From IMG/VR virus record IMGVR_UViG_3300017598_000267, positions 1 through 31,333 of that record: 31,333 bases of DNA; one strand, written 5' to 3'. Under the pieces are notes generated by a model that ran no database searches, was not told the origin of the DNA, and saw only the letters and a program-made list of their open reading frames with translations. Both the position numbers and the translations under genes were made by a program. Below are positions 4,799 through 30,972 of the stretch, piece after piece; position 1 is the first letter of the stretch, and each line of letters starts with the position of its first letter. The stretch comes from a virus.

Positions 4799-5467
4799 TT
4801 AGATTTTAGAAAAAAGCCTATCTTTGTCGGCTTGGTATTTATTATATTCTTCATTGACTGCTGAAAAATCTTTTGACATCGCTGTTATTATTCTATTAAC
4901 TGTTCTGTCGGAAAATTCAGGATCAATATTAGTGCTTTGGTTATTATCTAAATTTATATAACCATCTATATCCACTTGAACAGGATATCTATAATATGAT
5001 AATTTAGCTATGGTAATATCAAATTTTGAAAAGTAAATTGATACTGTGTTAGAACTTAGTGTGTAAAACGTCTCACGATATTCAAAAGAAGGTTCATTAA
5101 AACAATCTGCTAAGTACTCATCAACGTTGTCATTTTTAACCTCAAAGGAAAAAATCTTTTTATCTTTACAACTTGCTTTGCTCCCAAAAACTTGTAATGA
5201 AGAATGATCAAAGTAGTTATCAGGAAGAGGAAAATCTTTATGATTCTCATTTTCTATTCCATTAGCTAGTGGTTTGTCTAATACTAAAAGGTTTTGAATA
5301 TCTCTTAGTTCATCTTCGTTTCTCTTTTCAAGAACCCACTCTACAAACTTACCTTGTATCTTATTGAACATTAGAACAAACCTACTTTTGTCAACATCTA
5401 TGTTGTCCTCAGTGCTGTTTCTATTAACCTCTTGTAAGAAGGTTATGTATGCTTGCTCTATAGTCAT
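4799..5467 (-). CDS. Putative head-tail connector (neck) protein
   Basis: 222 residues. The N-terminal helices (about 1-55, with EQAYITFLQEVNR and FNKIQGKFVEWVLEKRNEDELRDI) lead to a beta-rich middle. A C-terminal helix (NRIITAMSKDFSAVNEEYNKYQADKDR) ends the protein. This layout resembles phage head-completion and adaptor proteins that bind below the portal. Position supports this: after capsid genes, before the large tail-region gene. The start codon shares one base with the stop of the 320-residue gene upstream, implying translational coupling. The similarity is judged by eye, so a different neck role remains possible. Confidence 0.5.
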   Translation of the reverse strand: MTIEQAYITFLQEVNRNSTEDNIDVDKSRFVLMFNKIQGKFVEWVLEKRNEDELRDIQNLLVLDKPLANGIENENHKDFPLPDNYFDHSSLQVFGSKASCKDKKIFSFEVKNDNVDEYLADCFNEPSFEYRETFYTLSSNTVSIYFSKFDITIAKLSYYRYPVQVDIDGYINLDNNQSTNIDPEFSDRTVNRIITAMSKDFSAVNEEYNKYQADKDRLFSKI

Positions 5468-6429
5468 TAAATACTAATTATCTCCTGCTTTGTCTCGCTA
5501 AGTTCACTATCTATTAATAAGTTCTCTGCTGCGTGTTTTAGGTCTGTCCCTAATTCTACATCTTTAAAGTAATACTTACCATTTGATTTCTTAGTAATAC
5601 CTTTTTCAGCTTTAAACAATACACTTAATTTCTTATGTAAATTAATCTTTTCTTCAAACTTATCACTTTCATCAGCCCGTGTATAAGTTTCATTAAATAG
5701 TCCTGGATTTTGAGGTTTTCGCTCTAACCACTCTTGGAATGAGAAGTTTAGTGTTTCTTCATCTATTGAGTCTGAAACTATAAGACCATTATAATGTAAT
5801 AAACTTAATAAGAATGTTCTATTCTTAGCTTCTAATCTAGCAAAGTTTTTAACAGCATTCATCTTATCACTTGCCTTTTGCTTCTTAAAGTCAGTAGCTT
5901 TCGCTGTGTCAACAATACAGTAATCTGAATTTTTGAACTTTGGGTCACCTTCTTTTCCTTTTGGAGTTAAGCTAAAGTTATTAATTGCAAGAAACAAATC
6001 AAGTAGGTCTTTTACCTTACCTGTGTTAAATACTCTACCATTGAAGAGATTTATTGAATAGGTTAACCAAAATTCATCATCTGTGTGATCTAAATCTTGA
6101 GTTTTCCCATTAGCCTTTTTATAAGGATTAACAATGTGTTTTCTAAGAGAAGAAACAATGCTTTTTATTTCATCAGTATCTTTATCATGGTAACATGGGG
6201 AAGATTCATGTAATCCTGTATCCCATACTCCACTTCCTGTTTGACTATCAATAATATGATATCTACAAGGTACGGAGTTTGCTACTCCTTCTGATGGTAA
6301 TTTTGATACTCCTTCTGCTGCAAAACCTGAAGGTGCGTTAAGATCCTCTTTACCTGTGATCTTATACAATGAGTTTGTTTTGATTTGAAATCCATTGAGT
6401 TCAAATACTAATTCTTTTTTTTCTGACAT
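5467..6429 (-). CDS. Head/neck-region protein of unknown function
   Basis: 320 residues with no family I recognise. It is Lys-rich and mixed alpha/beta. The first 70 residues (ELVFELNGFQIKTNSLYKI, CRYHIIDSQTGSGVWDTGL) look beta-rich. A central basic helical stretch (ATDFKKQKASDKMNAVKNFARLEAKNRTFLLSLLHYNGL) follows. There is no signal peptide or membrane segment. It is the first gene after the capsid terminator and has its own promoter candidate. It is coupled to the connector-like gene downstream, so a head-completion or minor capsid role is inferred from order only. Confidence 0.55.
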   Translation of the reverse strand: MSEKKELVFELNGFQIKTNSLYKITGKEDLNAPSGFAAEGVSKLPSEGVANSVPCRYHIIDSQTGSGVWDTGLHESSPCYHDKDTDEIKSIVSSLRKHIVNPYKKANGKTQDLDHTDDEFWLTYSINLFNGRVFNTGKVKDLLDLFLAINNFSLTPKGKEGDPKFKNSDYCIVDTAKATDFKKQKASDKMNAVKNFARLEAKNRTFLLSLLHYNGLIVSDSIDEETLNFSFQEWLERKPQNPGLFNETYTRADESDKFEEKINLHKKLSVLFKAEKGITKKSNGKYYFKDVELGTDLKHAAENLLIDSELSETKQEIISI

Positions 6430-6491
6430 GTTGGTTTGATTTTATGGTGTAAAATTACGTAAGTAATTTAATATAATGAAATATGTTAAAA

Positions 6492-6522
6492 CAAAATTAA
6501 TAGGGGATTGGTTTTTATCCAA
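6492..6522 (-). promoter_or_regulatory. Candidate Bacteroidota-type promoter for neck/tail genes
   Basis: On the minus strand TAATTTTG (6499-6492) matches the -7 form TAnnTTTG. TTGG (6522-6519) lies 19 bases upstream as a weak -33. The -33 would overlap the hairpin of the capsid terminator. Transcription would begin near 6486, leaving a leader of about 57 bases before the ATG at 6429. Confidence 0.35.
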
Positions 6523-6527
6523 CCCCC
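6497..6527 (-). terminator. Terminator after the major capsid gene
   Basis: The minus strand reads GGGGGTTGG (6527-6519), loop ATAAAAA, CCAATCCCC (6511-6503). This is a 9-bp stem with one G-U pair, starting 13 bases after the capsid stop. The downstream T run is interrupted (TATTAATTTT), so termination may be partial. The stem could also work in the opposite direction. Confidence 0.65.
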
Positions 6528-6539
6528 TTAGTTAATTTA

Positions 6540-8237
6540 TTATTGCTTAAGTTCAATAACGATATATCTCGTTGTATCTAATACTAAAGCTGCCGATTGA
6601 CTGTGTGCCCAAAATGTTCTTCCCATTTGTTTTAGAGATGATTGAACATCTGATACACTTGCACCATTCGCCATTCTTCCTTGCTCGTATCCGTATTCGA
6701 TATGAGAACCTTCAGGTTTGATATAGTAAACGTTAGCACGGTCATTTCCGTTCTCCATTACTTTACCACCTTTCACTTTGCTCTCAATTGAAGCATTTGA
6801 ATATTCAGGGTTAGTTGCATCCCAAATCACTAAAGAGTGAGATGTGTGTGCCATTCCGTCTCCGTAGAATCCTGAAGAGAATCTGTCTGCATATGGTTGG
6901 TAGTCTAAAGCAGGATCATGTTCTACTTCTACTAATCCAACACCAGGAATGTTTACCGTTCTGAAAACGATAGGCTTCATAGTTAATGCATCAAGGTCTC
7001 CTTGTAAAGGTGATTGAGGCAATGTTCTATCTGTACCTAATACAAATCCTAATCCTGACAATTGTTGTGAAACTTCCTCACGGAAAATCTCCATCATGTT
7101 CATGTAAGCAAACCATCCTGCTTTGAACTTAACTTTTCTCTTGTGTGGTGGAATGTCATTACGACCTCTAAACATATAAGCTACTGCTTCTTGAATATGT
7201 TGTTTAGTAATTCCTCCTGGACGACCATACTGAATCATCTTCCCTCTTCGAATCTGATGCCATACACCCTCATTCAGTCTCATTAGACCATTTGAAGTTT
7301 CAATAGTAGCAGCTTTTTGGAAGTACAATTGGTGTGCTTCAATTTGAGCTAACTCCATAAGAGCTAAATACTCAAGTGTTGCACCAACCTTGATTGATTT
7401 CTTGTCAATTTTACCATTAGGTAATTTGTTTGCCATAAAGAACATCTCTTTAGACTTACCACCTAATATATCTAATTGCTGTTTTGCTTTGTCCATTTGT
7501 GCATCAGCTACTGCTGAAAGCCCTGGAGCAGACATTCTACTTGCTTTTCTAGTATAGAATGTTTCAACACCTCTCATGTTACCAAGAATAAATTCATTAG
7601 TAATAGTTCCCATAGATGGGTTCATAAGGTTAATACTAGAATAGTCTGTACCAAACTCAGCTAAATTGTGACCGATTTTGATATACTCAATACCTGCTTT
7701 CAATTTATCTTTAGGATACCAAGCTCTCTTGTCATTAGAAACTAATCTTACATAGTGTCTGTAGTTTTCACCTTCTCTTTCAACATCGAAGTTTTCATCT
7801 ACAATAACTTGCTCTCCATACTGAGGATCATAAGTTAACACATCACCTTTAGTGAATTGTGTGTCCAATACAATCTCAAATACACCACCATCGATACCAG
7901 GTGCTTCATGCATGTTACTTGTATCTACTGCTGTTACACATCTAGAACTTCTTTTTACAGGAAGGTCATAAGTCAATGATTGTCCTTCATCCAATTCATA
8001 AACCTGAGAGTTTTTAAACAAGTCAGTCATGAACGGTAAACGTACATTGTGTGTTGCAGAGAAAAGGTTGATTAACCCTAAGTGCTTGCTAGTTGTGTTT
8101 TCTCCATCTTGTAACCATGCTCCTACTGTAGAAGAGTCTGCATATGAGATGTTTTTAATTTCTTTTGCACTAGTAAATCCTATGATTGAATCACCATTGA
8201 TGGACTCTCTAATGTCAAATCTGTCGTTGTTCGCCAT
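6540..8237 (-). CDS. Major capsid protein
   Basis: 565 residues. Called from position and composition: it directly follows an acidic scaffold-like gene, sits in the terminase-portal-scaffold-capsid order, and is followed by a terminator, as expected for the most abundant virion protein. The N-terminal 100 residues contain an arm-like segment and DEGQSLTYDLPVKR, then alternating beta strands and an alpha-rich middle (YLALMELAQIEAHQLYFQKAA, ITKQHIQEAVAYMFRG) compatible with an HK97-type fold with insertions. It is longer than a minimal HK97 capsid subunit. No Shine-Dalgarno is apparent. The region before the ATG is A/T-rich, as is normal in Bacteroidota. Identity with a particular capsid family was not verified. 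Confidence 0.75.
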   Translation of the reverse strand: MANNDRFDIRESINGDSIIGFTSAKEIKNISYADSSTVGAWLQDGENTTSKHLGLINLFSATHNVRLPFMTDLFKNSQVYELDEGQSLTYDLPVKRSSRCVTAVDTSNMHEAPGIDGGVFEIVLDTQFTKGDVLTYDPQYGEQVIVDENFDVEREGENYRHYVRLVSNDKRAWYPKDKLKAGIEYIKIGHNLAEFGTDYSSINLMNPSMGTITNEFILGNMRGVETFYTRKASRMSAPGLSAVADAQMDKAKQQLDILGGKSKEMFFMANKLPNGKIDKKSIKVGATLEYLALMELAQIEAHQLYFQKAATIETSNGLMRLNEGVWHQIRRGKMIQYGRPGGITKQHIQEAVAYMFRGRNDIPPHKRKVKFKAGWFAYMNMMEIFREEVSQQLSGLGFVLGTDRTLPQSPLQGDLDALTMKPIVFRTVNIPGVGLVEVEHDPALDYQPYADRFSSGFYGDGMAHTSHSLVIWDATNPEYSNASIESKVKGGKVMENGNDRANVYYIKPEGSHIEYGYEQGRMANGASVSDVQSSLKQMGRTFWAHSQSAALVLDTTRYIVIELKQ

Positions 8238-9555: not shown

Positions 9556-12303
9556 TTAATTCTTGTTAATTATTGAGGTAAATTCTTTAGTCTGTCTCTC
9601 TCTTTCACGTTGGTTTAGTTCCTTAGCTTTAAGCTTAAGTTCCTCCATCTTAAGTTTGAATTCTTTTGACATCTTAGTGTCTTCATTCTTCATTTTATTC
9701 ATCTCCAATCTCTCCTTAGAGTCAATTGATCTATTCTTTACAGCCCTATCAGCTTCCTTGTTAATTTGATTAAAGTCTTCTAGCCCTGCTTCTTTATCTG
9801 CTGCCCTACCTAGTGCATTTATTCTAGCAACCTCAAGTTTAGCTATTCTATCTTTTTCTTTAGACTCTTCTGTCCTAGCATCTTTATCTGCTTCTAATTG
9901 AGCAGCACCTTCTTGTTGTTGTTTGATAAGACCTTGATCTTGTTGATTTTTCGCTTGTAACTCTCCTTGCTTTCTAACTCTATTAATTCTAGCTAACTCA
10001 ACTAATTCCGAGTATGCGTCAGATTTAATAAGCTCTGCTAATTCTAAAGCATCTGACCCTAATGTGTTATTTTGTAATAGAGATTGTTTCAAACTCTCTA
10101 AATCTTTTCTTTTCTTATTATCATTAGAAGCTATTATACCTAACGTTCTAAATGGGAAGTGTTCATCTTCCATTTGTAAGAATGCTAATGACGAATCACT
10201 CTTAGTATATGCTACTGTTATATCTTTACCTTCCCCTTGTGCATACTGAGCTACAGATAGATGTAAATCTAAAGCTTTTTGAGTATACTCAGAGAATTCT
10301 GCAAATATTTGTGCGGTCTGTGCATAAGATGCATCTTGACTTGCTTTAATACCTTCCTGGTTTGTGTATTTATTTGGTGCACCTGTTTGTTGAGGTGATA
10401 TACCAATAATTTCAAATGCTTTTGATTTATAATACTCAGCTAATTGTTGTCTGTTTGCAATCTGTCCTGAGAATGTAATACTTTGGGTTGAGAACTGATT
10501 AAATATAGTATTGTTACTCTGTGTATCTCCTGAAGTAGCTATAGGCATAACCCCTACATCCTTTGCAATATTTCTAAGGTGCATTAGTGCTTCCTCTGTA
10601 TCACCCCATTCTTTAAATTCACTTGGAATAAATGCAACATCCATTAAGAAGAATGTACCAATCTCTTTTTCTAATAAAGAGTAGATTTGGTTCATACATA
10701 AGTTAAACTTAGTTTGGTATGGTGCAATTTTCTTAGCCAAAGATTTGCCAATTTTTCCTCCTACTGGCAATTTTATATCAAAAAAGTTACTGTCACCTTT
10801 TATTTGGTGTTCGCATGGTTTACAATATAAGTATAAAGGTTCTTCCATATTGAAAGAAGATACTTTTGCTCCTTCATAACATACAGGTCTGTAAAACCAT
10901 TGTAATGTGTTTTCCTCAAAGTCATCTTTTACATCAATAAGACGATTTGTTTTAATTTGTTTTATATCTTTGTCCTTTAAAAACTCCGATAAAATATCTT
11001 CTGTTACTATTTCATTAAAGATTTCCCCTGTCGTTTCATCAGTATAAGACAGATAACCTACCATATCGTATGCAATAAAGTATACTTCCGTAACTTGGCA
11101 CATATCAAAGTTTATGTTTAGGTCTTCTCTTAAAGAACTCATGTAAGAATGGTTTACCTGATTGGTATCTCCATGTCTTCTAGAAATAAATCTATCGTAC
11201 TCTTCTCCTGTTTTAAGATCTTTGTACTGTCCCATTGGTTCTCCAAAGTAATCTTGCATGTTTAAAGCAAAATTATAATCAAAATAGTTGGCATGTGGTG
11301 CAACAACTGACTTATGAAAGTTGCTCTCTATAGCATCATTAAAGTTACCATCGGAGTACCCTACATAATTCTTCCAATCTTTTTTACCTCCAAGTAATTT
11401 CTTTTGATCGCTTGTTTTTATGTAATGTCCTAATCTTTGTACAGTTTCTGATGGAGATAAGTAATGTACTCTACCTACATACTCACCGTCTTGTGCGTAG
11501 TCTGAATCTATTGTTTGTGAAAAGAATGTATTTACAGGACTCCACTTTTCAGGGTGGTACATGTCATACCCTATTCTATAATGTCTAAAACATCTTCCTG
11601 TTGCTAGGTAATCTTTGAACTCCCCTCTTTCAAGTTTGTCCATTTGAAATCTTTCCCTATCTTGTTCAAGTGTAGCTTCCCCCCATTTAACTCCTACCGT
11701 TTTAAACGATTTTTGTAAGTGGTGTTCTATATGTTTTGGGGTTTTCTCATCAACTACTTGTTGTAGCTGTTGCATGTACATTTGCTTTTCCTCTTCAGAC
11801 TTAAAGTCAGTCTTTTTTGAGTCTAAGCCCATATTCATTAAATGAAGCTCAATTTCTGCATCCAATTTTTCCTTTAGGTAGCTCTTGAACATTTCGTTCT
11901 TCTTCCTAAGATAATCATTATTTGCTATTTCCCCCGTGTCGGTAACATGGAACAAATCCTGCATCTCCATATAATTACCTACTAGTACATTAATAATAAT
12001 ACCAATAAGATCATAATGTTTTAGGAATGTAGGAATACCTACACCATCAAGTAAATCTTGGACATTTTCTAGTTCGGGAATTACTTCAGAAAGTTCCTGA
12101 TGTGATAAATCCCCATCAATCATTCTATAATAATCTAGGAACTTGTAGTTCTCACCAAGTTGATCAATACCTACTCTTTCGAAATCATCTAGCACGGATC
12201 GTTGCCAATCTTTACTATTCTTTACAGATTTTTTTACCCACATTGGGGTAATCTCACTGGATGAATTTATATTGCTATGCCAATTTCCTATGTTAGTCCA
12301 CAT
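9556..12303 (-). CDS. Portal protein (large, with long C-terminal coiled coil)
   Basis: 915 residues. The portal forms the dodecameric DNA channel at one capsid vertex. It lies between terminase and scaffold, the usual place. Core features are an N-terminal helical region containing NYKFLDYYRMIDG, a middle clip/stem region, and the segment KKIAPYQTKFNLCMNQIYSLLEKEIGTFFLMDV followed by QQLAEYYKSKAFEIIGISPQQTGAPNKYTNQEG, which is characteristic of large portals of this type. Residues about 780-915 are almost entirely charged helix (Lys/Glu/Gln-rich), an extended C-terminal barrel or coiled coil. It is much longer than minimal portals and nearer in length and style to crAss-like ones; that relation is by eye. 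70 bases separate it from terminase. Confidence 0.85.
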   Translation of the reverse strand: MWTNIGNWHSNINSSSEITPMWVKKSVKNSKDWQRSVLDDFERVGIDQLGENYKFLDYYRMIDGDLSHQELSEVIPELENVQDLLDGVGIPTFLKHYDLIGIIINVLVGNYMEMQDLFHVTDTGEIANNDYLRKKNEMFKSYLKEKLDAEIELHLMNMGLDSKKTDFKSEEEKQMYMQQLQQVVDEKTPKHIEHHLQKSFKTVGVKWGEATLEQDRERFQMDKLERGEFKDYLATGRCFRHYRIGYDMYHPEKWSPVNTFFSQTIDSDYAQDGEYVGRVHYLSPSETVQRLGHYIKTSDQKKLLGGKKDWKNYVGYSDGNFNDAIESNFHKSVVAPHANYFDYNFALNMQDYFGEPMGQYKDLKTGEEYDRFISRRHGDTNQVNHSYMSSLREDLNINFDMCQVTEVYFIAYDMVGYLSYTDETTGEIFNEIVTEDILSEFLKDKDIKQIKTNRLIDVKDDFEENTLQWFYRPVCYEGAKVSSFNMEEPLYLYCKPCEHQIKGDSNFFDIKLPVGGKIGKSLAKKIAPYQTKFNLCMNQIYSLLEKEIGTFFLMDVAFIPSEFKEWGDTEEALMHLRNIAKDVGVMPIATSGDTQSNNTIFNQFSTQSITFSGQIANRQQLAEYYKSKAFEIIGISPQQTGAPNKYTNQEGIKASQDASYAQTAQIFAEFSEYTQKALDLHLSVAQYAQGEGKDITVAYTKSDSSLAFLQMEDEHFPFRTLGIIASNDNKKRKDLESLKQSLLQNNTLGSDALELAELIKSDAYSELVELARINRVRKQGELQAKNQQDQGLIKQQQEGAAQLEADKDARTEESKEKDRIAKLEVARINALGRAADKEAGLEDFNQINKEADRAVKNRSIDSKERLEMNKMKNEDTKMSKEFKLKMEELKLKAKELNQRERERQTKEFTSIINKN

Positions 12304-22377: not shown

Positions 22378-22664
22378 CACCTGGAAGACAAGTAATATGT
22401 ATTGATGCCTCTAAGGATGCAAACACTGACTACAGTATGTTTACGCAGTGGGTAACCGAGGGGGCTAAGTACACAGTAAGAAGAGCAGAAGCAGATGGTA
22501 GGTTACTATTTGAGGAGATAAAAAATAAGTCAATTCATTTCCCTAGCTTAATGGGAAATACAGAGCCTGGATTCCACAAGAGGAGATTTGCAGACTATGA
22601 AGAGTATATATTAGGAAATGTTAACGTAGAAGAAAAAGAAAAAGATGAAGTACACACCATGTAA
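22374..22664 (+). CDS. Small conserved-type phage protein
   Basis: 96 residues. The pattern VICIDAS...WVTEGAKYTVRRAEADGRLLFEEIKN...EPGFHKRRF is common in small phage proteins: a short SH3-like beta barrel (a prescribed length, Gly at turns) ending in GFH..RF. I recognise the style but no function. It overlaps both neighbours, by 4 bases upstream and 20 downstream. Confidence 0.55.
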   Translation: MTPGRQVICIDASKDANTDYSMFTQWVTEGAKYTVRRAEADGRLLFEEIKNKSIHFPSLMGNTEPGFHKRRFADYEEYILGNVNVEEKEKDEVHTM

Positions 22665-23016
22665 CAATAGAATTATAATCAAAGTCCTTAAAGCATCATT
22701 TGAACAAACAGCAGGTGGTTTATTAATAGATGGGGATGATTTAAAGACTGAAAGTAAAAATAATTTAATAAGAGCAACTATTGTAAGAGTAGGACATGCT
22801 TGTACTTTCTTTACTCCTGAGCAAGAAGGTTTAGTAGTACTGATTCATGAAGTAGCAGGAGTACCTATGCACGGAGTAGACTCTGATTACAAAATACTTA
22901 GAGAAGATGATATTTGGGCATTTTCAGAGGAACAACCTAGTGAGATTATTACACTAGCAGATGCTATGAAAGAGAGTCCATTTGCAAAAGAAGTAAATCA
23001 TCAGGAAAGTAAGTAA
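22645..23016 (+). CDS. GroES-like co-chaperonin
   Basis: 123 residues. The Cpn10 beta barrel is recognisable: NNRIIIKVLKASFEQTAGGLLI at the start, a loop region (about 25-40) in place of the mobile loop, RATIVRVGHAC, then VLIHEVAGVPM and YKILREDDIWA. The last 25 residues are an added tail. Phage relatives (T4 Gp31, RB49 CocO) replace host GroES so that GroEL can fold large capsid proteins. With a 565-residue capsid protein here, the same role is plausible. It overlaps the preceding gene by 20 bases. Confidence 0.75.
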   Translation: MKYTPCNNRIIIKVLKASFEQTAGGLLIDGDDLKTESKNNLIRATIVRVGHACTFFTPEQEGLVVLIHEVAGVPMHGVDSDYKILREDDIWAFSEEQPSEIITLADAMKESPFAKEVNHQESK

Positions 23017-23248: not shown

Positions 23249-23467
23249 ATGGGTAATAAAGAGAAACAGAATTTAAAGAGGAATAAAGACTTTTTCAAAT
23301 CAAAAGGGAGAATAGATGTTTGGTTAGAAGAAGAAGATATTGATTTTATTATTAAGGAATGGGAGGAAATGAAGGAACATCTTTCAGATTTTCAAGCAGA
23401 ACGTTGGGGGAATATTGCATATCGATGTAATATAGCCCTGTTTGCAAACACCGAACAAACAGATTAA
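23249..23467 (+). CDS. Small unknown protein
   Basis: 72 residues, highly charged and helical (KEKQNLKRNKDFFKSKGRIDVWLEEEDIDFIIKEWEEMKEHL). Last gene before the structured RNA candidate. Its stop is 5 bases before the long closing stem. No function can be assigned. Confidence 0.5.
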   Translation: MGNKEKQNLKRNKDFFKSKGRIDVWLEEEDIDFIIKEWEEMKEHLSDFQAERWGNIAYRCNIALFANTEQTD

Positions 23468-23472
23468 CAATT

Positions 23473-23632
23473 TAACTACCTACTGAAGATAAACAGAGAA
23501 GTCTAAGACGGACATAAGCGAAAGATGCTTCTCAATCATGCTAAGATGATGTTGTTTATTGTAAGCTAGTAACACTAAGCCACCAAAGTTTAGTTATAGT
23601 ATTAGTCCACTTAGAAATGGATAGGTAGTTAT
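23473..23632 (+). ncRNA. Candidate structured non-coding RNA
   Basis: A 180-base gap in packed genes holds nested complementarity. The closing stem TAACTACCTA (23473-23482) pairs perfectly with TAGGTAGTTA (23623-23632). Inside, ATAAACA (23489-23495) pairs with TGTTTAT (23553-23559) and encloses two arms: GAGAAG/CTTCTC (23496-23501/23528-23533) and ATCAT/ATGAT (23535-23539/23546-23550). A third domain is CTAGTA/TATTAG (23566-23571/23601-23606, one G-U) capped by ACTAA/TTAGT (23574-23578/23591-23595). A fourth arm is TCCA/TGGA (23607-23610/23619-23622). No open frame fills the gap. I do not match it to a known RNA family: hammerhead core bases and tRNA features are absent. It may act in trans or be a cis element for the gene at 23648. 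Confidence 0.55.
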
Positions 23633-23647
23633 TTTAAAACAAAGATT

Positions 23648-23857
23648 ATGAAAACGAGTTTAGAGATAGAAATAACAAACGTAGAAGTAGAGGGTAGGTG
23701 GTATACTGTAAATTATACAGCATCCTACAAAGGAAAAGAATACAAAGAAGAAATCAACGATGATCATTGTTGGGAACCTGCCGAATGGTTAGAAGACCTA
23801 ACAAAAGGAGGAGCAGAGACAATGGCATTTTGTGATTTTACAGAAAAACACTTTTAA
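23648..23857 (+). CDS. Small unknown protein after the structured RNA
   Basis: 69 residues, acidic, beta-rich start (LEIEITNVEVEGRWYTVNYTASYKGKEY) and Trp-containing middle (DDHCWEPAEWLEDL). Starts 15 bases after the closing stem of the RNA candidate, so its translation could be affected by that fold. No family recognised. Confidence 0.5.
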   Translation: MKTSLEIEITNVEVEGRWYTVNYTASYKGKEYKEEINDDHCWEPAEWLEDLTKGGAETMAFCDFTEKHF

Positions 23858-25446: not shown

Positions 25447-25635
25447 GTAGGTTTTTAGGAGAAGGGTGATCCGATAAGTGACGAAATGATAAGATAATGA
25501 TACGAAGAGTGATTTGGTTGGTTATTCTACAATTTTTATAAATCGAACGGATGTGAGCAAGTACCTAATAAAAACCCTCCCCCCCAAAAAAAAAATTTTC
25601 GAAACCACCCCCCTAATTTAGAACGATTCTATTTA

Positions 25636-25790
25636 AGTTTGGCACGGTTTTATTTTGAAAGCTGGCTCTTTTTTATTTTTCGAGTTAACTAATTTATGTT
25701 CATAACTTAGTACTTATTTTAGGTAGTTTGGCACGGTTTTATTTCTCATATTTATTTCCCAAAAACCCAGATCTGGCACGGTCTTTGGTA
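25636..25790 (+). repeat. Three TGGCACGGT direct repeats
   Basis: AGTTTGGCACGGTTTTATTT occurs identically at 25636-25655 and 25725-25744, 89 bases apart. A third, shorter copy (ATCTGGCACGGTCTTTGG) is at 25771-25788. The core resembles the -24 part of sigma-54 promoters, but the -12 GC is missing in all three, so protein-binding repeats are more likely. Confidence 0.6.
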
Positions 25791-25863
25791 GGTATTTTAG
25801 GCTTAATTCAATTGAAATTGCACCTGTAAAATTATTTACATAGCAATACAATTATTAATAAAG

Positions 25864-25872
25864 TTTTCCACA
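25864..25872 (+). promoter_or_regulatory. DnaA-box-like site
   Basis: TTTTCCACA fits the relaxed DnaA-box consensus TTWTNCACA. It lies in an AT-rich stretch about 220 bases left of the phased iterons. A single box can occur by chance, so the context gives most of the weight. Confidence 0.35.
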
Positions 25873-26092
25873 AATTTTCATGCATTGTTAACAACGTATA
25901 TAGGTAGTGTATAGCTATACCTTATGTATGTTGATAGCATGCGTTTTAAGGTACTTATTAGCGTGTTTAAGCTACTATCTCAGTACCTCGCGTATACATA
26001 TATCAATTTCTTGAGTTCGTCCATTAGAAGCGATTCGCCTGCTATCATTGGGCTGTAGAGCCTATGTTTATATTAGTTTATATAAATATGAC

Positions 26093-26145
26093 CGTTCGTC
26101 ATTGAAATTGATACGTTCGTCATTTTATAGCTACCGTTCATCACT
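26093..26145 (+). repeat. Three iterons with exact 21-bp period
   Basis: CGTTCGTCATT starts at 26093 and 26114, and CGTTCATCACT at 26135, so spacing is 21 and 21 bases, two helical turns. A weaker fourth version follows at 26155 (CACCTATCACAT), and a related AGTTCGTCCATT lies at 26014-26025. Phased repeats of this kind are typical binding sites of replication initiators or regulators. Confidence 0.55.
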
Positions 26146-26217
26146 TAAAACTTGCACCTATCACATTTTTCACCATCTTTGTAATGTCAAAACGAAACAA
26201 CGGTTTTATTTGACATG

Positions 26218-26315
26218 AGTTCTTTAACATATGTACACGATAACCTTGCAAATTCTTTGCAACGTTTTGGTAACATTCGATACCAGTTTTACATATGAAG
26301 TTCTTTGACATATTG
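26218..26315 (+). repeat. Two boxA-like sequences flanking an inverted repeat
   Basis: AGTTCTTTAACATATG (26218-26233) and AGTTCTTTGACATATTG (26299-26315) resemble the boxA of ribosomal RNA leaders (E. coli TGCTCTTTAACA) and the GTTCTTTGACATATTG form seen in Bacteroidota rRNA leaders and spacers. BoxA in RNA binds NusB/S10 to prevent early termination. The second copy also reads as TTGACA-N17-TACATA. Confidence 0.4.
26246..26262. promoter_or_regulatory. Inverted repeat TTGCAAA-N3-TTTGCAA
   Basis: A perfect 7-bp inverted repeat with spacer TTC. Copies with the same arms and 3-base spacer overlap the promoters at 29872 and 30941, so one phage protein may bind all three. This copy lies between the two boxA-like sequences and has no TAnnTTTG at the right distance. 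Confidence 0.5.
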
Positions 26316-26392
26316 ATACATACATACTACATAGGTACTACGGCAGGCAATGACATCACGAATACGATGACAACCATAGAAGTAGCCTTGAT

Positions 26393-26450
26393 AGGTCGAA
26401 GGTGTGAAAGCCTTTTACATGGTGCATACGTCCCATGCTTACAATGACCT
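26393..26450 (+). ncRNA. Three-way-junction fold in possible long transcript
   Basis: AGGTC (26393-26397) pairs with GACCT (26446-26450) and encloses two hairpins: AAGG/CCTT (26399-26402/26411-26414) and CATGG/CCATG (26418-26422/26433-26437). It lies about 80 bases after the second boxA-like site. The stems are short, so this is a weak call by itself. It gains weight from the density of hairpins in the region. Confidence 0.3.
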
Positions 26451-26838
26451 TGATACGTTAAGATAGTACACTAATATATAGGTATGGAATCATGATGAAA
26501 GACGTTAAACAGTAATATACATGGAGCGTCAGCCATAGTCCTCAGCCAATGGAGAGGCGGTTAATACCGCATAAGGCAGAATGAGGGGTACTTTTTTAGG
26601 ACAATTGAATTGAGTCTAAATTTCAGGCAATATCGGGCTTGGGGGTATCAAAACGCAATAGGGCAATAGTGCTATTGACGGATTAACAGATTCTATATGT
26701 ATCGTTCTATATAGATTAAAAAGCGGAACGAATAGTTTATTAATGAGAGTGAAAAAAGTCAAACACTTGTTGATTAAAAAATAATGACCATGTGGCTGAG
26801 ATAGAGAACACGTTAAATAACTATCTAAAATTAGGTAA

Positions 26839-26890
26839 TTAGGTGTGTATAGAGTAGTCTACGGGGGTTCATGACCCTGCACACCTCTAA
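26839..26890 (+). ncRNA. tRNA-like fold without anticodon arm
   Basis: AGGTGTG (26841-26847) pairs with CACACCT (26880-26886), a 7-bp acceptor-like stem. Then TA, as at tRNA positions 8-9, a 4-bp D-arm-like hairpin TAGA-GTAG-TCTA (26850-26861), and GGGGT-TCATG-ACCCT (26864-26878), which can also be read as a T-arm with loop TTCATGA. There is no anticodon arm and no CCA, so it is not a working tRNA. It ends 23 bases before the ATG at 26910 and may be a leader regulator or tRNA remnant. Confidence 0.4.
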
Positions 26891-26909
26891 TCAATTAATA
26901 TAAAATAAC

Positions 26910-29861: not shown

Positions 29862-29903
29862 TTGCAAAAAGTTTGCATATTAAATTAAATTGAATTACAT
29901 TTG
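29862..29903 (+). promoter_or_regulatory. Promoter overlapped by TTGCAAA-N3-TTTGCAT operator
   Basis: TTGCAAA (29862-29868), AAG, TTTGCAT (29872-29878). The TTTG of the right arm is a perfect -33, with exactly 20 bases before TACATTTG (29896-29903), a perfect -7. Start predicted near 29909, about 18 bases before the ATG at 29927. A protein on the inverted repeat would block or recruit RNA polymerase. Confidence 0.7.
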
Positions 29904-30930: not shown

Positions 30931-30972
30931 TTGCAAATTATTTGCATAAGTGAAAAATAAAGATTACATTTG
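30931..30972 (+). promoter_or_regulatory. Second promoter with the same operator
   Basis: TTGCAAA (30931-30937), TTA, TTTGCAT (30941-30947); -33 TTTG at 30941-30944, 20 bases, -7 TACATTTG at 30965-30972. The layout is identical to the promoter at 29862, including the -7 sequence, while intervening bases differ. Predicted start near 30978, ATG at 30995. Confidence 0.7.

Follow-up and report, generated by a model that had tools for sequence, protein, structure and literature searches.

The phage and the gap in its rightward operon

We analysed the whole of a 31,333-base virus record (IMGVR_UViG_3300017598_000267), referred to here as the window. PHROG family matches show that its left half, on the minus strand, carries the genes for terminase, portal, and virion structural proteins; its right half is taken up by closely packed small genes on the plus strand, among them RecA, a GIY-YIG endonuclease, and a GroES-like gene. 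The best matches of the terminase were csAssE-Sib, the Cellulophaga phages phi17:2 and phi4:1, and a Leptolyngbya phage, all at ~37-38% identity, with human-gut crAss-like phages ranking next at lower identity. Since the terminase, portal, and capsid proteins match the Cellulophaga phi17:2/csAssE-Sib branch of the crAss-like phages, and given the gene content, we interpret the window as part of the genome of a crAss-like phage from the phi17:2 branch, in line with the phage origin assumed in the first-pass annotation.

The plus-strand genes between 17390 and 24972 overlap or lie at most 40 nt apart, with the sole exception of an untranslated gap of 180 nt (23468-23647), which extends from the stop of a 72-amino-acid ORF to the ATG of a 69-amino-acid ORF and is interrupted in all six frames. 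Both the tight packing of the neighbouring genes and the 180-base gap with no open frame had been pointed out in the first-pass annotation, and both were borne out. Two genes lie between the GroES-like gene and the candidate RNA described below, and neither a promoter nor a terminator specific to this RNA was recognised at the locus. A tblastn search of the downstream 69-amino-acid protein against phages gave no match. The genes concerned are:

22645-23016, plus strand: GroES-like (Cpn10) gene, ~450 nt upstream of the RNA (Pfam Cpn10, E 1.3e-6)
23249-23467, plus strand: upstream gene from the ORF list, 72 aa, no Pfam family
23648-23857, plus strand: downstream gene from the ORF list, 69 aa, no Pfam family, starting 16 nt past the structure

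Elsewhere in the window, a long non-coding region (25447-26909) precedes genes of 119, 126, and 288 amino acids and contains repeats such as TTTGGCACGGTTTTATTT; relatives have non-coding regions of ~500-940 nt at the matching place, and the region may serve as an origin or in control. Two promoter motifs of the Bacteroidota type (TTTGCAT..N..ATTACATTTG), almost identical to each other, are found at 29872-29903 and 30941-30972, upstream of small genes.

The predicted fold and its comparison with shuffled sequence

The gap is predicted to fold into a branched structure with the following parts:

23473-23632, plus strand: candidate structured RNA, ~160 nt, branched (MFE -40.1 kcal/mol, z -3.53)
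23473-23482, plus strand: 5′ arm of the predicted closing stem P1, TAACTACCTA, perfect 10-bp pairing with 23622-23631
23622-23631, plus strand: 3′ arm of the predicted P1, TAGGTAGTTA
23488-23560, plus strand: predicted arm P2, 8 bp (23488-23495 with 23553-23560), enclosing the two hairpins P2a and P2b
23496-23533, plus strand: predicted hairpin P2a, 7 bp
23535-23550, plus strand: predicted hairpin P2b, 5 bp, loop GCTAAG
23566-23605, plus strand: predicted compound arm P3, 6 + 7 bp (23566-23571/23600-23605 and 23574-23580/23588-23594)
23606-23621, plus strand: predicted hairpin P4, 4 bp, loop CTTAG

The perfect 10-bp closing stem of the first-pass annotation was recovered with its arms 139 nt apart, and pairing probability was near 1 for most of the P1 pairs. 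The nested 7-bp stem and at least five further helices, said to fit together without conflict, also hold in the MFE structure, which has nine mutually compatible helix segments (10, 2, 8, 7, 2, 5, 6, 7, and 4 bp), two of them only 2 bp long. The P2a loop (23503-23526) comprises 24 nt and is purine-rich and mostly unpaired, with one weak 2-bp helix inside. The P4 loop CTTAG may form a pseudoknot with CTAAG of P2a (23503-23507) or of P2b, which we grade as a possibility only, because a 5-bp loop-loop match is also seen in ~9% of shuffled loops. The fold was unchanged in contexts of 186-301 nt except for a few outer pairs, and in a 612-nt context P1 was lost and the inner arms were kept. The structure spans the gap, stops 16 nt short of the next ATG, and keeps clear of the A/T-rich start region of the 69-amino-acid gene, which is not part of the fold and, in folds of 160-220 nt, is predicted to be unpaired.

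Comparison with shuffled sequence, a check that the first-pass annotation had proposed, supported the structure. The whole 180-nt gap has an MFE of -40.6 kcal/mol (z -3.33), and only 2 of 2000 dinucleotide shuffles were as low; for the 160 nt at 23473-23632, an interval chosen because of its folding, so that selection bears on the shuffle statistics, none of 200 shuffles reached the same energy (z -3.53). Ensemble diversity was 12.8, compared with 42.9 +/- 13.2 in shuffles, none of which was as tight (0/600). When composition-corrected energy and tightness were scored jointly over both strands of the window, 1 of 2078 tiles was as good. The minus strand of the gap is less stable than the plus strand, yet it too folds better than its shuffled versions (z -2.21). 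Energy alone is unexceptional genome-wide: the gap is absent from the 15 best plus-strand structures in a local-fold scan of the window, and shuffled windows yield equally extreme z values. The 10-bp inverted repeat is, by itself, likewise unexceptional in the window, where perfect repeats of this length with a loop of 100-180 nt occur twice, compared with a mean of ~5 in shuffles. The case for a structured RNA therefore rests on the combination of the operon's only gap and one well-defined fold that fills it.

Searches against Rfam and with ARAGORN agreed with the earlier statement that the structure matches no known ribozyme, riboswitch, or tRNA. At curated gathering thresholds, no Rfam family matched in the window, including riboswitches, ribozymes, introns, ROOL, GOLLD, and phage pRNA families, and at E<=10 the interval 23400-23700 gave three weak matches (E 1.9-7.4), far below gathering and none of them credible. 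ARAGORN found no tRNA or tmRNA genes in the window, and no tRNA was among the E<=10 Rfam matches in 23400-23700. A hammerhead ribozyme was considered and rejected, as the CTGAAGA sequence at 23483-23489 resembles the CUGANGA box, but the GAAA partner is absent after the P2 arm and no Rfam hammerhead matched.

Search for counterparts in related phages, and the RNA genes that follow groES

A terminase alignment led to 31 IMG/VR loci and four genome contigs, including a Chitinophaga chromosome, and alignments of the 514- and 288-amino-acid proteins led to 90 further loci, whereas a locus search with three neighbouring proteins found no relatives. Even the nearest relatives have a terminase only 44-48% identical to that of the window. 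In the Chitinophaga sp. YR573 sequence (NZ_FOJF01000001.1), a terminase of the same crAss-like branch sits inside a 4.8-Mb bacterial contig, which suggests an integrated relative.

No counterpart of the window RNA emerged from these sequences. Searches of ~40 related records with blastn and a single-sequence covariance model gave chance scores only, unfiltered searches of nine syntenic loci found none, and comparison of the region with phage records by blastn returned chance matches only. The best full-length phage match of the first covariance-model search (L066) was rejected, as it lies antisense inside a 618-amino-acid ORF. Two degenerate loop patterns run over IMG/VR retrieved 2 and 9 stretches, none credible to the covariance model, and in the stretches inspected the motif sits within coding frames. 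The lack of a homolog is weak evidence, because at such distance an RNA that evolves fast is likely to be missed, and records nearly identical to the window may be missing from the collections searched.

Several syntenic relatives carry RNA genes directly 3′ of groES, namely tRNA-like genes and two structured RNAs without a family, which we call R2 and R3:

L194:4853-4966, L195:6282-6396, and L199:5485-5599: R2 RNA, adjoining groES
L210:1501-1611 and L211:1501-1594, minus strand: R2 RNA, diverged copies beside a different gene
L193:4274-4447 and L192:4451-4577: R3 RNA, lying between groES and a tRNA-like gene and adjoining both

R2 is a short, branched RNA of ~115 nt that begins at the first base past groES in L194, L195, and L199, with a conserved hairpin (CGCUGU..GGGGUGUC.CCC..GCAG) followed by UUCUGAAUCCAGCCAA, and it has no Rfam match at E<=3. 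Among the five phages, four R2 pairs are altered on both sides, compared with a shuffle mean of 1.1; single-sequence folds also point to an outer stem that would read CCUAU/AUAGG in L210, CUUAU/AUAAG in L211, and CCUGU/ACAGG in L194. R3 likewise has a compensatory change in a stem, which is ATAGAC/GTCTAT in one of the two phages and GTAGAC/GTCTAC in the other, and its hairpin tip is expanded by 46 nt in L193 relative to L192. In L196, a tRNA-Leu-like gene and a tRNA-Met lie a few genes beyond groES, and in L191 groES has no such adjoining gap. The tRNA-Leu-like gene (L196:7714-7813) was recognised by Rfam only (33.8 bits), was missed by ARAGORN, and adjoins a normal tRNA-Met. L198 contains a palindromic repeat (GTAGTTACCTCGGAGGTAACTAC) in many copies, at ~5190-7301 and 10889-10912, and one gap there folds with a z of -6.2.

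Covariance models built from these families did not recover the window RNA: the R2 model had no match in the window (E<=10) or in record G000 (E<=1), and the R3 model had none in the window. A resemblance between the P2a loop AAGACGGACATAAGCGAAAGATGC and the loop GAGACGTAAATGAGAATTGC of the L193 RNA was seen by eye only and was set aside, as no model backs it. The position that the candidate shares with the post-groES RNAs of relatives is loose and suggestive only, because the window GroES is of a different type from theirs and two genes intervene.

Interpretation and comparison with known structured RNAs

Taken as a single sequence, the locus can reasonably be read as an unassigned structured RNA, probably an orphan, lineage-special small RNA gene or leader. 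The trans-acting RNA, processed leader, and decoy put forward in the first-pass annotation are all candidate functions. We tentatively favour, at somewhat below an even chance, a gap that encodes a ~160-nt structured trans-acting RNA, cut or protected at the 10-bp stem from a polycistronic transcript. The rightward operon transcript would include the gap RNA, the terminal stem would serve as the site of excision or as protection, and the resulting stable RNA would act in trans during infection, with a host RNase, the ribosome, a defence factor, or a phage protein as candidate partners. This reading fits a start region of the next gene that is free of the fold and the known occurrence of phage RNAs near tRNA genes, and it draws support from the stability and tightness relative to shuffles (1 of 2078 tiles), from the lack of an Rfam riboswitch or leader match, and from the RNA genes that follow groES in relatives, where R2 has compensatory changes. 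It is weakened by the missing homolog, by the relatives' models that found no match, by the lack of a recognisable promoter or terminator, and by a folding energy that is unexceptional by itself. That the candidate would represent a new lineage-specific small-RNA class, one among unrelated RNAs in a changing post-chaperonin slot, with the host's translation, RNases, or defence as its targets in trans, seems to us distinctly doubtful.

A chance fold in a non-functional spacer or in the remains of a lost gene, with no selected RNA, is a serious null that we consider rather unlikely. In its favour, there is a single sequence with no homolog, shuffled sequence contains P1-like inverted repeats more often than the window does, the energy z is equalled by other, mostly coding, stretches, and, with about a dozen gaps considered, the 2/2000 becomes a family-wise value of ~0.01; on the other hand, the ensemble is tighter than all 600 shuffles, and the structure fills the sole sizeable gap of a compact operon. 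The main functional rival is a cis-acting intercistronic element that would tune translation or decay of the 69-amino-acid gene and later genes, either as a barrier to processing or decay or as a leader that senses a ligand or protein. Its position directly upstream of that gene, in a co-oriented operon and with neither promoter nor terminator recognised for it alone, fits such an element, but the free start region, the lack of a match to a known leader or riboswitch family, and the lack of a recognisable competing terminator or anti-terminator argue against it, and we regard it as unlikely. Finally, a DNA-level recombination or replication site, whose inverted repeats would fold as single-stranded DNA, is very improbable. 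In its favour, the other strand holds the repeats too, and its fold is below its own shuffles; against it, the fold of the mRNA strand is markedly better (z -3.33 vs -2.21), and replication or control is more likely to be seated at 25447-26909, with a long non-coding region conserved there in relatives.

crAss-like phages are abundant, and no paper dealing with non-coding RNAs of these phages turned up in our literature search. If the window RNA and the families of its relatives are true transcripts, they would form a changing set of structured RNAs beside chaperonin and tRNA genes and would be concrete candidates through which phage and Bacteroidota host might interact at the RNA level.

RNA C and RNA D of phage T4 are stable non-tRNA species of 100-150 nt that derive from a polycistronic transcript, lie within a tRNA cluster, and have no known function. 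The candidate would resemble them as a small non-tRNA phage RNA, with sequence compared through Rfam and phage BLAST; no tRNA was found in the window, and tRNA-like genes follow groES in some relatives. R2 belongs to the same phage group, follows groES in three of its five members, and is short, branched, and without an Rfam family; however, neither its sequence nor its structure matches the window RNA, and two of its members adjoin another gene. ROOL and GOLLD are structured RNAs of phages and prophages, of unknown function and often near tRNA islands, and GOLLD RNAs are in many cases longer than 800 nt (PMC12286853). Relatives of the window phage similarly carry RNA genes together with tRNA-like genes, although ROOL and GOLLD are far larger than the ~160-nt window RNA, which has no Rfam match. 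Screens of intergenic regions have found candidate structured RNAs, some near phage genes, by comparing multiple sequences (PMC8040213, PMC2864571); ours is likewise a predicted structured RNA in an intergenic region, but it rests on one sequence. The candidate belongs to a kind that is already known, the orphan structured RNAs of phages.
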